Source of the DNA: a virus | Virus record (IMG/VR): IMGVR_UViG_3300021425_002457 | Span: 1 to 31,376 of that record | Length of the DNA stretch: 31,376 nt | Direction: 5' to 3' (one strand) | Shown: positions 13,280 to 28,488 of the stretch, one piece after another | How positions within the stretch are numbered: position 1 is the first letter of the stretch | Layout of the letters: each line of letters opens with the position of its first letter | Notes under the pieces: model-generated | Told to the model about the DNA's origin: nothing | Databases searched by the model: none | The model's input: the letters and a program-made list of their open reading frames with translations, nothing else | Position numbers and translations under genes: made by a program

Positions 13280-13353
13280 AACAACGGGGAGTTGTCGATT
13301 CTCCTTTCATCTGCGGGTAACCATTCCGCAAGTAAACAAACGAGGTAAAACAA

Positions 13354-13725
13354 ATGATCAAATCTGTATTCGCAGCAACTGCTGCTCTGTCTATGTCCGC
13401 AGGCGCTGCCCTTGCAGGTCCATACGTTAACGTCGAAACCAATGCTGGTTGGACTGGTGCTGATTACACTGGTGCTACCACCGACCTGCACGTAGGCTAC
13501 GAAGGAGCCCTGGGAGAAAACGGTTCCTACTACGTCCAAGGTGGTGCTAGCCTGGTCAGTCCTGACGGTGGCGACACTGACACCGTCCCTTCAGGTAAAG
13601 CTGGTCTCGGTTTCGCTCTGTCCGACGCCCTTGGAGCCTATGGTGAAGTCTCCTTCATCGGATCTGGCGACGACGACATCGATCGTGGCTATGGCGCTAA
13701 AATCGGTCTGAAGTATAACTTCTGA
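13354..13725 (+). CDS. Small secreted outer-membrane-barrel-like protein (paralog 1)
   Basis: The 123-residue protein has a clear Sec signal peptide (1-21, cut in ALA|GPYV). The mature part is an alternating polar/hydrophobic sequence with Gly-rich turns (SPDGGDTD, GSGDDDID) and ends in KIGLKYNF. A C-terminal aromatic residue after alternating hydrophobics is the usual BamA signal of outer-membrane barrels. About 100 mature residues would allow six to eight strands. It shares AGPYV, the central P-DGG turn and the terminal KY-F with the gene at 13934. Ribosome site GAGGT lies 7 bp upstream of the ATG. Codon use is C-rich and host-like compared with most of the window. A barrel fold is inferred, not proven. 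Confidence 0.75.
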   Translation: MIKSVFAATAALSMSAGAALAGPYVNVETNAGWTGADYTGATTDLHVGYEGALGENGSYYVQGGASLVSPDGGDTDTVPSGKAGLGFALSDALGAYGEVSFIGSGDDDIDRGYGAKIGLKYNF

Positions 13726-13746
13726 TTTTGATTCCATAACAAATCA

Positions 13747-13770
13747 GACTCCCTTCGGGGGGTCTTTTTT
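13747..13770 (+). terminator. Rho-independent terminator with TTCG loop
   Basis: GACTCCC (13747-13753), TTCG loop, GGGGGTC (13758-13764), with one G-T pair, is followed by six Ts. It ends the transcript of the 13354 gene and isolates it from the pstS unit. Confidence 0.9.
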
Positions 13771-13843
13771 AATGCTTAGTTAAGGGTGGTAAAATTTAGA
13801 TTAACCCGTGCTACATATTGAGGTTTGTCCTACAAAACATCAA

Positions 13844-13873
13844 CTTAACTTGATCTTAAATACAGGATTACAA
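13844..13873 (+). promoter_or_regulatory. Candidate cyanobacterial PHO box
   Basis: Two octamers, CTTAACTT (13844-13851) and CTTAAATA (13855-13862), match the cyanobacterial PHO repeat YTTAAYYW in eight and seven of eight positions and are separated by exactly 3 bp. A weak third octamer GATTACAA (13866-13873) keeps the same 3-bp spacing. The block ends 8 bp before a TATAAT, as expected for a PhoB-activated promoter in which the box replaces the -35. The second octamer could also be read as a degenerate late promoter. Confidence 0.6.
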
Positions 13874-13878
13874 AGTGC

Positions 13879-13887
13879 TGTTATAAT
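13879..13887 (+). promoter_or_regulatory. Extended -10 promoter element (TGTTATAAT)
   Basis: A consensus TATAAT at 13882-13887 is preceded by TG one base upstream, giving an extended -10. No -35 hexamer lies at the right distance, consistent with activator dependence through the PHO box just upstream. Transcripts would start near 13893 and cover the 13934 gene and pstS. Confidence 0.6.
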
Positions 13888-13933
13888 AATCAAGTCTTTA
13901 ACGGACAAATCGGTAAACATTACTCAAAGAAAA

Positions 13934-14293
13934 ATGAAAGCAATCGCTCTTGCCGCACTGGCAATGTCTGCCCTGGCGACACCTGCCCTTGCAGGACCCT
14001 ATGTAGAGTCCAAGCACGAATTCAAAGGAACTGATGAAGACTTCTCCAAGCAAGTTCATCAGGGTCGTGTTGGATATGAATGGAAACTTGGTAAAGCAAC
14101 TCCTTATGTTGAAGGTGGTTTCGGTGTGGCCACTCCTGATGGTGGCGAAAATGAATCCTTTACCGCTCTAGAAATTGGTAGTAAGTATAAGATCACTGAT
14201 AGTTTCTCTGCTTATGCTAAGTATGAGAACATCTTCCAAGAGGATGAAACCCGTGATTGGAAAGTTGAACTCGGCACCAAGTATAAGTTCTGA
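13934..14293 (+). CDS. Small secreted outer-membrane-barrel-like protein (paralog 2), pstS operon
   Basis: The frame extends upstream to a GTG at 13808, but the ATG at 13934 gives a clean Sec signal peptide (1-20, ATPALA|GPYV) and lies downstream of the inferred promoter. The 119-residue product shares AGPYVE, a central TPDGGE turn and a terminal GTKYKF with paralog 1, and shows alternating strands such as TPYVEGGFGVA and FSAYAKYENIF. It is 10 bp upstream of pstS with no terminator between them, so both should be co-transcribed under phosphate control. A channel or adhesin in the host outer membrane that assists phosphate entry is an inference from this context. Confidence 0.78.
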   Translation: MKAIALAALAMSALATPALAGPYVESKHEFKGTDEDFSKQVHQGRVGYEWKLGKATPYVEGGFGVATPDGGENESFTALEIGSKYKITDSFSAYAKYENIFQEDETRDWKVELGTKYKF

Positions 14294-14303
14294 TAGGATA
14301 TAA

Positions 14304-15284
14304 ATGAAACTCAAAGCACTTGTAGCAGTTGTTGCTGCTACCCCCCTAATGGTTGCCTGTGGTTCTAATCAAACTGCAGAGGTTAAAGAACCATTCAAAC
14401 TGAATGGAGCAGGGGCATCGTTCCCTGCCATGTTGTATCAGAACTGGACGCAATCTTTTGCTAAAGATACTGGCAACCAAGTCAACTACCAAGCAGTTGG
14501 TTCTGGTGCTGGTGTCCGTCAGTTCAAAGCTAAGACTGTTGACTTCGGTGCCAGCGACGGTGCTGTCGCTGACGCCAAGCAACCCCCCGAAGGTATGGTT
14601 CACATCCCCATGACTGGTGGTGCTATCGTTCCTACCTACAACTATCCTGGTTGTGAAGTCAAGATGACTCAGACCGAACTTGCTGATGTATTCCTCGGCA
14701 AGATCACTAACTGGTCTGCTTTTGGTTGTGCTGATAAGCGTATCACTACTGTTCATCGTTCTGATGGTAGTGGCACCACCAAAGGTTTCACTAACTCCCT
14801 CTCTGCATTTTCTCCTGAGTGGAAGAAGACGGTTGGTACAGGTAAGGCAGTGAAGTGGCCTGTTGGTGTTGGCGCTAAGGGTAACTCTGGTGTTGCTGCC
14901 CAGATTACCAACACTTCTGGTTCTATTGGTTATGTAAACTATGGTTATGTGAAGGGTGACCTGCAACAGGTTGCCATTCAGAACAAAGCAGGAAACTTTG
15001 TAAAAGCATCTGCTGAGACTGCTTCTGCTGGTCTTGGTGAAATCGTTCTTGACGATCAACTCCGTGGTGCTGATGCTAACCCTGCTGGTGCTAATGCCTA
15101 TCCTATCGTCTCCTTGACTTGGATCCTGGCATACCCTGAGTATGAAAAGAATGAAGATGTGAAGACAATGCTTCGCTACATGTTGACACCTACTCAGCAA
15201 CAGAAGGCAGACTCTCTTGGTTATGTTCCTCTCCCTGAGTCACTTCGTCAGAAAGCCCTGACAGCTGTTGAGAGTTTAAACTGA
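14304..15284 (+). CDS. pstS: Phosphate ABC transporter substrate-binding protein PstS
   Basis: The 326-residue protein starts with a signal sequence ending in LMVAC, a near-lipobox with Cys19, so it is probably a periplasmic lipoprotein. Phosphate-binding loops are present in order: GAGASFPA (35-42), GSGAGVRQF (66-74), DFGASD (80-85) and HRSDGSGTT (151-159), then GSIGYVNYGY. Length and motifs are normal for PstS. Cyanophage pstS genes are known to boost phosphate uptake by the infected host. No pstABC genes are present, so it must work with the host permease. It is behind the candidate PHO box and followed by a strong terminator. Confidence 0.96.
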   Translation: MKLKALVAVVAATPLMVACGSNQTAEVKEPFKLNGAGASFPAMLYQNWTQSFAKDTGNQVNYQAVGSGAGVRQFKAKTVDFGASDGAVADAKQPPEGMVHIPMTGGAIVPTYNYPGCEVKMTQTELADVFLGKITNWSAFGCADKRITTVHRSDGSGTTKGFTNSLSAFSPEWKKTVGTGKAVKWPVGVGAKGNSGVAAQITNTSGSIGYVNYGYVKGDLQQVAIQNKAGNFVKASAETASAGLGEIVLDDQLRGADANPAGANAYPIVSLTWILAYPEYEKNEDVKTMLRYMLTPTQQQKADSLGYVPLPESLRQKALTAVESLN

Positions 15285-15304: not shown

Positions 15305-15330
15305 AGACCCCCTTGACGGGGGTCTTTTTA
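15305..15330 (+). terminator. Rho-independent terminator after pstS
   Basis: AGACCCCC (15305-15312) pairs perfectly with GGGGGTCT (15318-15325) across a TTGAC loop, followed by a T-run. It ends the pstS transcript. Confidence 0.88.
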
Positions 15331-23284: not shown

Positions 23285-24087
23285 TGGAGATAAAACAAAT
23301 TGGTGTTGGGGATATTCAAATCAGATCTTTGAATATCCCACCAGTAATCACTCAGGGGTCCAACGTTTTTGATGCTCAAGTACCTGTCCCTGTAGTGGTT
23401 AATATTGGACTGCCAATTGTTGATGTTCCTGGATGTGTTGAGGCACACGAAACCAACAATCCCAAGAATAATCAGGTAAGTGGTGATGATCCAAAGGGAA
23501 CAATAACTTTCTGTGATGCTGGAGTTCCAAACTTCAGTCCTATTCAGTATGAACCAGAACAGATGATCATCACTCGTCCTGCCCCCGTAGATACCAGGAT
23601 GAAAGAGAAACCAGAAGCACCTAAACCAACAGAAGATTTACCAACACCACCTGCAGCAGAAGTTCCAAAGACTCCAGAGATAGAGTGTCCTACTCAGAAA
23701 CAATTACTAGAGGAACCAGTTGGGTTTATCTTTGATGGTGGACGACAGAGAGTGACTGGTTACGAGTTACAGGGTAATCAGTGTGTCCGTCTAGTAGAAG
23801 ATGTCAAGATATTAGAACAAGTTGTTAATGCCATTCCACCTGCAGGAGTAATCACAACTACAACAACAATTGCTGTAGTTGCGACTAGTTCTGCTCTTTT
23901 ATCTAAACCCTTTGTTGACTTATTACTTAAGGTGGTCAAACCAACTGTCAAAAAAGTGATGAAGAAGATTGCTACTATCAGGGGGAAGGAACTAAAGGTC
24001 TTGTCTGTAGAGGAGCGCCGAGTTGAGCAGCGTCAGAGGAACTTGGCGATTCGGACTTTACGGGAGGCTTTGAAACCGAAGAAATAG
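23284..24087 (+). CDS. Proline-rich protein with a C-terminal membrane segment
   Basis: The 267-residue product begins with beta-like IKQIGVGDIQIRSLNIPPVI, has a proline-rich linker (about 112-135: KPEAPKPTEDLPTPPAAEVP), four cysteines in the middle, a hydrophobic segment (about 190-218, VITTTTTIAVVATSSALL) and a Lys/Arg-rich C-terminus. It resembles anchored virion-associated proteins, but no family is recognised. Its 3' end overlaps the minus-strand gene by 110 bp, and the last 90 bp are unusually GC-rich. Confidence 0.65.
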   Translation: MEIKQIGVGDIQIRSLNIPPVITQGSNVFDAQVPVPVVVNIGLPIVDVPGCVEAHETNNPKNNQVSGDDPKGTITFCDAGVPNFSPIQYEPEQMIITRPAPVDTRMKEKPEAPKPTEDLPTPPAAEVPKTPEIECPTQKQLLEEPVGFIFDGGRQRVTGYELQGNQCVRLVEDVKILEQVVNAIPPAGVITTTTTIAVVATSSALLSKPFVDLLLKVVKPTVKKVMKKIATIRGKELKVLSVEERRVEQRQRNLAIRTLREALKPKK

Positions 24088-24865
24088 AATGTGTATGATC
24101 TTTAATGTGAGTTACATTTTGAACCACGACATCAGCACAAATTTTATAATAAGGACTCCTTGGGTGGAAACTGATTCCTTTTTGAATTAATTCACCACAA
24201 TTTTTTAACCTCGCGATCTCAAAATCTAATCTTTTATTGGCAGTGAGTTGTTGTTGCAATTCAATCTGTGTGGTTGCTGCCTTCTTACAAAGGTCTTGTA
24301 AGTTTTTATCTGTAGGTGTACTCCATGTCATAGAGAAACCTACACCTAGACTGTAGTTATCTTTCTGTCCAGTTCTTGTCTTTTTCCTGAAAAGAATATC
24401 TCCTGGGTTATCAATCAATCCATCATCATTTAGATCACTTACATCATACACAGGATCCATATAATATGGTTCATATGGTTTTGCTGCTGATGCGGTTCCT
24501 GTCACATAGGGGGTAAAATTTCTCGTAGGACCCTGACACTGGACTCCTCCGCCGTATGTATTCGTAATATACGGACCTTGGAGGACCTGGATTGCCTGGT
24601 TAGTGACACTGCCGCTACTATTAGCGACGGGACTAGCAGTAGCAGAAACACCCCCCACAGTTTCTGCCAAAGATTGTGATGGAAACAATCCACTTAGAAT
24701 TACTGCGAGAATATACTTGTAGTATCTGTTACGCTTGTAACTTCTGTTGTTCTTTGAATAATTGTCTGGTTCGAGAGACCTGGTCCCTTGTACGTTTCCG
24801 TAAATTGGAAGGCGTTTCCTGGAACTGTTTGTGTGAATTGAGGTTTGCTTGTTACTCCAGTCCAT
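23978..24865 (-). CDS. Exported protein of the minus-strand cassette (start uncertain)
   Basis: The 295-residue frame contains a hydrophobic signal-like segment (YYKYILAVILSGLFPSQSLA, about 48-67) followed by ETVGGVSATASP and a beta-rich Gly/Thr/Ser region. A cysteine-containing helical domain with LQDLCKKAATTQIELQQQL and SFHPRSPYYKICADVV follows, then a Ser/Pro-rich tail. The only canonical start upstream of the signal is the ATG at 24865, which gives 47 extra residues overlapping the preceding gene by 166 bp. A non-ATG start near 24710 is the alternative. The stop lies inside the converging gene. Function unknown; a virion or surface role is possible. Confidence 0.7.
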   Translation of the reverse strand: MDWSNKQTSIHTNSSRKRLPIYGNVQGTRSLEPDNYSKNNRSYKRNRYYKYILAVILSGLFPSQSLAETVGGVSATASPVANSSGSVTNQAIQVLQGPYITNTYGGGVQCQGPTRNFTPYVTGTASAAKPYEPYYMDPVYDVSDLNDDGLIDNPGDILFRKKTRTGQKDNYSLGVGFSMTWSTPTDKNLQDLCKKAATTQIELQQQLTANKRLDFEIARLKNCGELIQKGISFHPRSPYYKICADVVVQNVTHIKDHTHSISSVSKPPVKSESPSSSDAAQLGAPLQTRPLVPSP

Positions 24866-25143
24866 GATGATGTCACTCCATCAATAGTTACATTTGTTGC
24901 CCCTGTACCAGGAGATAGATTTCCATTAACTGTAATACCAGATCCAGTTGCTGAATACTGATAACCAGTGTTGTAGTCCATCGAATTGATGGTCTCTGTA
25001 ATCTTTTGTGTGGTCTCAGTGTGGCTGGTCATAGAGCCCTGAGTGAAGTTTGGCACAACTGGCACAGAATATACAGGTTGTACCAAACCATGAATGACTC
25101 CAAGAACCAATCCAAGACCGATTGCCTCTTGTAATCTATTCAT
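24700..25143 (-). CDS. Exported Thr/Ser/Gly-rich protein, paralog of the next upstream gene
   Basis: The 147-residue protein starts at an ATG overlapping the preceding stop (TGATG), has an N-terminal hydrophobic segment (about 5-27) with LGLVLGVIHGLVQPVYS, and a Thr-rich beta-like body. Motifs GSGITVNGN and PGNAFQFTETYKGP echo GHGMTISGNG and SGDAFSFSASYTQGD of the upstream gene, so the two look like diverged duplicates. Low charge and repeated short strands suggest an extracellular or virion-surface protein. Its 3' part overlaps the next frame. Confidence 0.72.
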   Translation of the reverse strand: MNRLQEAIGLGLVLGVIHGLVQPVYSVPVVPNFTQGSMTSHTETTQKITETINSMDYNTGYQYSATGSGITVNGNLSPGTGATNVTIDGVTSSWTGVTSKPQFTQTVPGNAFQFTETYKGPGLSNQTIIQRTTEVTSVTDTTSIFSQ

Positions 25144-25649
25144 CAATCAATTACCGTGATTTCAGAGACGAATTGTCCCGTTGCACTTGTACCAGCTCCA
25201 CCAGCTGTCAATGTCATTGTGTGTGCGTTATCAATAGTACCAGCTAGAGACCCAGCAGTTCCAGCTGTATAAGAAGTAACATTTCCGAAGTTGGGAATTG
25301 CACCTGTGGTAGCAGCAGCGGCAGGGATAGCATCACCTTGAGTGTATGAAGCACTGAAGGAGAACGCATCACCAGATGTTGCTTGAGATGCAGTAACTAC
25401 ACTAGAAGCACCAGTGAAACCATCACTAGTCATTAATACAGAGTTACCAACAACACCAGTGGTTGTGCCATCTGTAGTGGTTACCCCATTTCCAGAGATA
25501 GTCATACCATGACCAATTCTAGTTGCAGTGGATCTTGCAGCATCAACAGTCAGTTGAACACTAGAAGAGTGTTTAGTAACAAGTCCGCCTGCATTAGCTG
25601 CACCTGCGGTCATCAGTAACATTCCAAAAGCAATGATAGCTTTTTTCAT
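25143..25649 (-). CDS. Exported Thr/Ala/Gly-rich protein, first gene of minus-strand cassette
   Basis: The frame is open from 25715, but the ATG at 25649 gives a classical Sec signal peptide (MKKAIIAFGMLLMTAGAANA, 1-20). The 168-residue product then is almost free of charged residues and very rich in Thr, Ala, Gly and Ser, with many short strand-turn units. It has an adhesin-like composition, but no family was recognised. It begins the minus-strand unit with a late-promoter-like CTAAATAT about 23 bp upstream. Confidence 0.75.
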   Translation of the reverse strand: MKKAIIAFGMLLMTAGAANAGGLVTKHSSSVQLTVDAARSTATRIGHGMTISGNGVTTTDGTTTGVVGNSVLMTSDGFTGASSVVTASQATSGDAFSFSASYTQGDAIPAAAATTGAIPNFGNVTSYTAGTAGSLAGTIDNAHTMTLTAGGAGTSATGQFVSEITVID

Positions 25650-25671
25650 CAGGGAATTCTTTGACACGCAT

Positions 25672-25679
25672 ATATTTAG
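25672..25679 (-). promoter_or_regulatory. Possible late promoter for minus-strand cassette (CTAAATAT)
   Basis: On the minus strand the octamer CTAAATAT reads towards the 25649 gene and resembles the TCTAAATA elements at 17136 and 18409. The 132-bp divergent gap also holds GTAAATAG at 25747-25754 on the plus strand, a weaker candidate for the gene at 25782. Confidence 0.4.
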
Positions 25680-25781
25680 GGACCCTGTAAGTTCCTTAAA
25701 ATGTTTTTGTATCAACGCAATACAGTCTTGAGAATATCTTAAGTGAGTAAATAGTTTGCAGTATCTTTTTCCCTTACTAGA

Positions 25782-28332: not shown

Positions 28333-28417
28333 CATCAACGACAGGGAACGTAAAGTTCTGTAACGTTGTAACACCCCAAACCGAGACCTATAGGGTGTCT
28401 AAATCACGTCTCTCATA

Positions 28418-28439
28418 TCCTCTCTTAAGGGTGAGAGGA
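28418..28439 (+). other. Hairpin in psbA leader
   Basis: TCCTCTC (28418-28424) pairs with GAGAGGA (28433-28439) around TTAAGGGT, and ACACCC (28371-28376) may pair with GGGTGT (28393-28398). The leader has no Shine-Dalgarno before the psbA ATG, so structure may govern translation or mRNA stability. Confidence 0.5.
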
Positions 28440-28488
28440 AATAGTAACTCCACCATTTCCCTGATGGTCTTACTTTTTGTTTAAAACA

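Follow-up and report, generated by a model that had tools for sequence, protein, structure and literature searches.

The window, meaning the whole stretch of DNA analysed here, is 31,376 bases long, and the IMG/VR record it comes from is no longer than that. The presence of psbA, psbD, plastocyanin, gnd and zwf identifies it as a fragment of a T4-like cyanophage. Two paralogs of the Phage_OMP family and a phosphate-binding protein gene follow one another on the plus strand. OMP1, the upstream paralog (13354-13725, 123 aa), matches PF24653 Phage_OMP (3.5e-51) and phrog_417 and falls in the OMP1 half of the family tree. OMP2 (13934-14293, 119 aa; PF24653 Phage_OMP, 3.3e-40) encodes a small secreted outer-membrane-like protein with a signal peptide over approximately residues 1-20 and a mature part of 99 residues. 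Both products are full-length members of PF24653/phrog_417, and their PF24653 scores (137.5 and 173 bits) exceed the curated cut-off of 27 bits. DUF680 was equated with PF24653 by comparisons made in this analysis, and PhCOG173 is DUF680 (PMC6224464). The third gene, pstS (14304-15284, 326 aa), matches phrog_5385 (6.2e-167) and passes as a PstS equivalog with NCBIfam TIGR00975 (270.4 bits, cut-off 205).

OMP2 and pstS are separated by a 10-bp intercistronic gap (14294-14303, plus strand), in which AGGA at 14295-14298 is likely the ribosome-binding site of pstS and no terminator was found. The sequence and the terminator scan therefore bear out the initial annotation, which had placed the two genes 10 bp apart with no terminator between them. 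The OMP2-pstS unit is enclosed by two intrinsic terminators on the plus strand. One lies between OMP1 and the Pho unit (13746-13765, an 8-pair stem with a T run to about 13771), and the other closes the unit (15305-15325, an 8-pair stem with a T run). Elsewhere in the window, three ORFs on the minus strand (23978-25715) run against the direction of almost every other gene; DUF6322 accounts for one of them, and Pfam matches neither of the remaining two. A PhotoRC-II RNA (RF01717, 82 bits) is located in the psbA leader at 28361-28452.

The Pho box CTTAACTT-gat-CTTAAATA is located upstream of OMP2 (13844-13862, plus strand), with octamers at 13844-13851 and 13855-13862. A Pho promoter has at least two direct 8-bp repeats near CTTAACCT with 3-bp linkers, and this arrangement is present at 13844-13862. 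The site was scored with a matrix built from 27 cyanobacterial Pho boxes published by Su et al. 2007 (PMC1906773), whose profile itself rests on two tandem repeats. It reaches 16.0 bits and ranks first of the 62,716 positions on both strands of the window, where random sequence with matched dinucleotide composition would be expected to yield 0.017 such sites. The two octamers with exact 3-bp spacing that were first noticed here are thus confirmed. A weak third repeat had also been proposed, GATTACAA at 13866-13873 (plus strand, after a cag linker), ending 8 bp upstream of the -10. The sequence and the distance are correct, but the repeat is rejected as a site because it scores -1.1 bits, in low-information columns, and is not conserved among relatives; it is probably not a Pho site. 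The extended -10 that had been claimed is present as TGTTATAAT (13879-13887, plus strand) with TATAAT at 13882-13887, and a transcript would start near 13894.

The second-best two-octamer score of the window, 14.2 bits, belongs to another Pho-like site, which lies in reverse orientation (13787-13805, minus strand). It may serve as an additional PhoB site or may be an upstream element rich in A+T. A T4-type late promoter TATAAATG at the start of pstS was set aside, since its transcription start would lie within pstS and the preceding columns are poorly conserved.

Related loci were collected from IMG/VR using pstS and OMP proteins as queries. The sample is biased by these queries to close relatives and includes near-copies; therefore, the frequencies given here describe that part of the cyanophages and not all of them. 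Against Markov shuffles, the score of the Pho site exceeded the 95th percentile in 56 of the 58 OMP-pstS units with enough upstream sequence. When 53 distinct units were aligned on the -10, both octamers stood at a largely fixed distance from it, and the alignment also conserves ACA right after the second octamer and GGTCTT at the putative transcription start. No conservation of the third repeat was found in this alignment. The OMP1 paralog served as an internal control: a two-octamer score of at least 11 precedes 85% of 110 OMP2-pstS genes but only 3% of 136 OMP1 genes, and in the window no Pho box was found before OMP1 (13354). In 49% of 85 related units, the score in the stretch farther upstream lies above the 95th percentile of the null, often at fixed offsets, and these second Pho-like sites, found in about half of the units, are mostly in reverse orientation as well. 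This comparative footprint, together with orthology to the P-SSM2 unit, supports the initial proposal that the two genes form a bicistronic unit under host Pho control.

The box could instead be decorative, with phage promoters alone driving OMP2 and pstS. Pho boxes predicted in phages are said to fail frequently, and PhoB did not always bind those of S-PM2d (PMC10976474). With the matrix used here, however, the reported sites of S-PM2d, which has no pstS, range from -5.7 to 6.8 bits, while the P-SSM2 site scores 16.0 bits, equal to that of the window. The S-PM2d failures count less for this locus because those sites score far lower. Since the octamers and their spacing are strongly conserved and are absent before the OMP1 paralog, and P-dependent control of P-SSM2 pstS has been published, a decorative box is hardly probable.

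The pairing of the two genes is also common. OMP2 lies directly ahead of pstS in 113 of 125 distinct OMP2 genes, and the gap is 9-11 bp in 82 of 99 pairs. The same gene order is present in P-SSM2 (g247-pstS), P-SSM7, S-SM1, S-SM2 and S-TIM61. Some phages keep one gene only: a Pho-boxed pstS lacks an adjoining OMP2 in S-TIM4 and two further loci, and a Pho-boxed OMP2 lacks an adjoining pstS in S-B64 and two others. Therefore, OMP2 and pstS are not obligately paired. Direct support exists for the promoter sequence, the boundaries of the unit, the order of its genes and the protein families.

An intrinsic terminator is present in the OMP1-OMP2 gap of every tandem locus among those listed. In eight related loci, the -10 of the Pho promoter upstream of OMP2 lies inside the loop of an intrinsic terminator that has a perfect 9-11 bp stem and a T-run, so that read-through from upstream would stop where Pho-driven transcription starts. 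Among the tandem loci listed, this arrangement coincides with a missing separate OMP1 terminator. In the window, the -10 is not within a terminator hairpin.

The product of OMP2 has several features of an outer-membrane protein. The C-terminus is aromatic in all 143 distinct homologs, with F in every C-terminus among those listed, and 140 of the 143 fit the outer-membrane beta-signal. AlphaFold2 predicts six strands of 11-14 residues for OMP2 (pLDDT 85.5) and six strands for OMP1 (pLDDT 77.9); the model is of a single chain, from which closure of a barrel by six strands cannot be read. The mean number of acidic residues at 38 outward strand positions is 0.0 in both subfamilies, with the charges pointing inward, although this count is partly circular and is supportive rather than independent because strand facing was assigned from hydrophobicity. 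The top fold matches in the PDB are OprF, OmpX, OmpA, OmpW and porins, none at E<0.001. Searched by sequence against solved structures, OMP2 gave just weak matches to siderophore receptors and unrelated proteins. The Pfam match, beta-signal, predicted strands and acid-free outward faces support the prediction that OMP2 is a secreted outer-membrane beta protein, in agreement with the initial annotation. The barrel-like topology suggested for it stands in part: the signal peptide, amphipathic strands and C-terminal beta-signal of a beta-barrel are present and six beta strands are predicted, but a closed barrel of at least eight strands is not, in either paralog.

A DUF680 protein was found by mass spectrometry in particles of S-SZBM1 (PMC9146016), which raises the question of whether OMP2 is a virion component instead of a protein of the cell envelope. 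That protein may belong to either subfamily and could be membrane debris, and ORF224 of S-TIM4 is listed among genes with products that are not particle-associated (PMC6224464). Since the signal peptide and the C-terminal beta-signal point to the outer membrane, a place in the virion is very improbable.

In the Phage_OMP tree, OMP1 and OMP2 form two halves with strong support (100/100). The family consists of OMP1, the upstream paralog with its own leader RNA, and OMP2, which is pstS-linked, predicted to be Pho-controlled and marked by nine near-invariant inward basic residues. At positions 27, 31, 39, 45, 84, 86, 96, 110 and 118, OMP2 has K or R (mean 8.5 of 9), whereas OMP1 has about 0 of 9 and mostly carries E, G, H, S or A. 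The nine positions extend over the full height of the strands. The sign of the charge is switched at four positions, with K in OMP2 and E in OMP1 at 27 and 96, and E in OMP2 and K in OMP1 at 80 and 112. OMP2 also has conserved interior acids (E29, E60, E80, E98, D108 and E112), which together with the bases look like salt bridges. The interior network was remodelled in its entirety. One genome scan for cellular OMP2 gave six matches, all in metagenome bins (Euryarchaeota, Lewinella, Dehalococcoidia and Rhodobacteraceae), which are likely misbinned phage contigs. A cellular origin of OMP2 was set aside, as the matches sit only in bins of unrelated taxa.

The basic interior and the tight pairing with pstS might indicate that OMP2 is a virus-encoded phosphoporin, in which several chains assemble into a pore that passes phosphate to PstS; the clade support of 100/100 for the subfamily agrees with this. 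Solved phosphoporins have 16 strands, however, and a 16-stranded trimeric pore of the PhoE/OprP type does not fit a chain of 119 residues with six predicted strands. The conserved interior acids, which look like salt-bridge partners, also speak against it. In addition, the OMP2 of the podovirus P-SSP3 (locus L162, 2941-3300) abuts psbA and not pstS, yet it retains 8 of the 9 basic positions, which weakens the basic residues as a phosphate-specific mark; and a Pho-boxed OMP2 occurs without adjoining pstS, for example in S-B64. A virus-encoded phosphoporin is therefore unlikely. More generally, a simple pore or phosphate channel is doubtful for this predicted fold, since it has six strands and an interior of both acids and bases, since a psbA-linked OMP2 exists, and since OMP2 and pstS are found apart. 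The initial idea of a two-part device, with outer-membrane passage of phosphate followed by periplasmic capture, is accordingly not supported as stated. Phage_OMP genes also touch psbA without a gap in P-SSP3 and several contigs, which adds another host-like gene to those paired with the family.

OMP2 may also be a surface modifier, acting in superinfection exclusion, receptor masking or envelope stabilisation, with the Pho promoter used because starved cells are infected for longer. Precedents are Ail, OmpX and Lom, surface proteins with eight strands that other phages and bacteria encode. The family also adjoins psbA, nrdC and hli genes, which is in line with such a role, but the near-constant tie of one subfamily to pstS is left unexplained. 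A further point in its favor is the selected loss of ORF224, a DUF680 gene of S-TIM4, in lines evolved on Synechococcus WH8102 (PMC6224464). The OMP1 model gives ORF224 (locus L288, 7633-7992) 78 bits and the OMP2 model gives it 27 bits; it is OMP1-type, and the loss result is therefore not directly about the pstS partner. A role in surface modification is possible, if somewhat unlikely. ORF224 adjoins nrdC and has the OMP1 leader RNA (66.4 bits) 4 nt ahead of its start.

This leader RNA is a covarying two-hairpin element in the OMP1 leader of the window, outside of the Pho unit (13280-13344, plus strand). It matches the covariance model with 76.5 bits, a match by construction because the window's leader belongs to the model alignment. 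Its elements are, in order, a GTCGA loop, CATC and a TGCGG...CCGCA hairpin, and compensatory changes occur in 10 of 12 pairs among 60 leaders. A motif taken from it is present in 126 of 142 OMP1 leaders and in 0 of 123 OMP2 leaders. Of 13 cyanophage genomes, 12 have a single match to the model, which by the positions of the Phage_OMP genes lies directly 5' of OMP1 each time, although these matches are partly by construction since several of the leaders were in the model. No Rfam match to the leader RNA was found.

The best explanation of the locus is a host-Pho-driven OMP2-pstS unit that sends PstS to the host permease and OMP2 to the outer membrane, and we give it as a whole a probability of roughly 0.8. 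When the cyanobacterial host is starved of phosphate, its phosphorylated PhoB would bind 13844-13862, perhaps aided by 13787-13805. Lacking a usable -35, the promoter would then bring host RNA polymerase to the extended -10. The host may lack PhoB. From the comparisons above we infer PhoB binding at the window's box, co-transcription of OMP2 and pstS, and membrane insertion of OMP2. A single transcript would carry both genes and end at 15305-15325, while read-through from OMP1 would be stopped at 13746-13765. Secreted PstS would feed the host's own PstCAB permease and maintain the flow of phosphate while host transcripts decay. OMP2 would be exported, its signal peptide cut between ALA and GP, and folded into the outer membrane by way of the beta-signal at its C-terminus, giving a small beta protein of six strands whose interior has conserved basic and acidic residues.

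The function assigned to OMP2 is speculative. The best guess is that it alters the outer membrane of a cell that is both starved and infected, either because its oligomers let anions through or because it changes surface properties, and that it is not a classical single-chain porin. A bolder version is that cyanophages hold two regulatory versions of a minimal six-stranded outer-membrane protein, OMP1 behind an uncatalogued leader RNA and OMP2 behind the host Pho switch with a re-engineered basic interior, and that OMP2 oligomers form a starvation-induced anion passage supplying the phage PstS; this we hold to be distinctly unlikely. The initial observation is confirmed and its first interpretation is partly supported.

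Phosphate limits infection across much of the ocean, and the PstS-bearing phages tested so far avoid the delayed lysis seen in other phages (PMC10976474). OMP2 accompanies pstS in nearly all units sampled. With the split into two types, told apart by nine diagnostic residues and different regulation, 'DUF680' is no longer one vague entry but two proteins open to testing, and the S-TIM4 loss-of-function result concerns OMP1 and not OMP2.

Compared with known proteins, PhoE and OprP resemble OMP2 by analogy only, as Pho-controlled outer-membrane proteins with a basic interior; they have about 16 strands, whereas OMP2 has six predicted strands in 99 mature residues, and no sequence kinship of OMP2 with PhoE/OprP-type porins was found. 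OmpX, OmpA and OprF share the beta-signal and a charge-filled interior and are the best fold matches, but they have eight strands and none matches the OMP2 fold at E<0.001. The PF24653 Phage_OMP/phrog_417 entry does not separate OMP1 and OMP2.

The locus as a whole is of a known kind, the PhCOG173-pstS unit of cyanomyoviruses, with a Pho box, a PhCOG173 homolog and pstS in order and a short gap. The coupling of the small protein to pstS is therefore not new and was previously described in cultured cyanomyoviruses. Kelly et al. are said to have described, in a 2013 abstract, pho boxes with PhCOG173 between the box and pstS in 8 of 11 phages. In two later papers (PMC6224464, PMC9146016), Kelly et al. 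2013 is the reference given for PhCOG173 acting under phosphate limitation or for the presence of pho boxes ahead of DUF680. The DUF680 cluster (173) beside pstS (174) is over-represented at BATS, which was treated as a low-phosphorus site (PMC3686209), and the pstS of P-SSM2 is reported to be PhoBR-controlled in work cited in PMC10976474 and PMC3686209. The g247-pstS unit of P-SSM2 has the same Pho box, small cyanophage-specific gene and pstS, with equal spacing and -10, and P-SSM2 also has two paralogs in tandem (g246, g247). The window differs in that its OMP2 is 47% identical to the P-SSM2 protein and in that it has an additional reverse Pho-like site upstream. What is new here is the split of the family into the OMP1 and OMP2 subfamilies and the doubt that this places on a plain phosphate channel.
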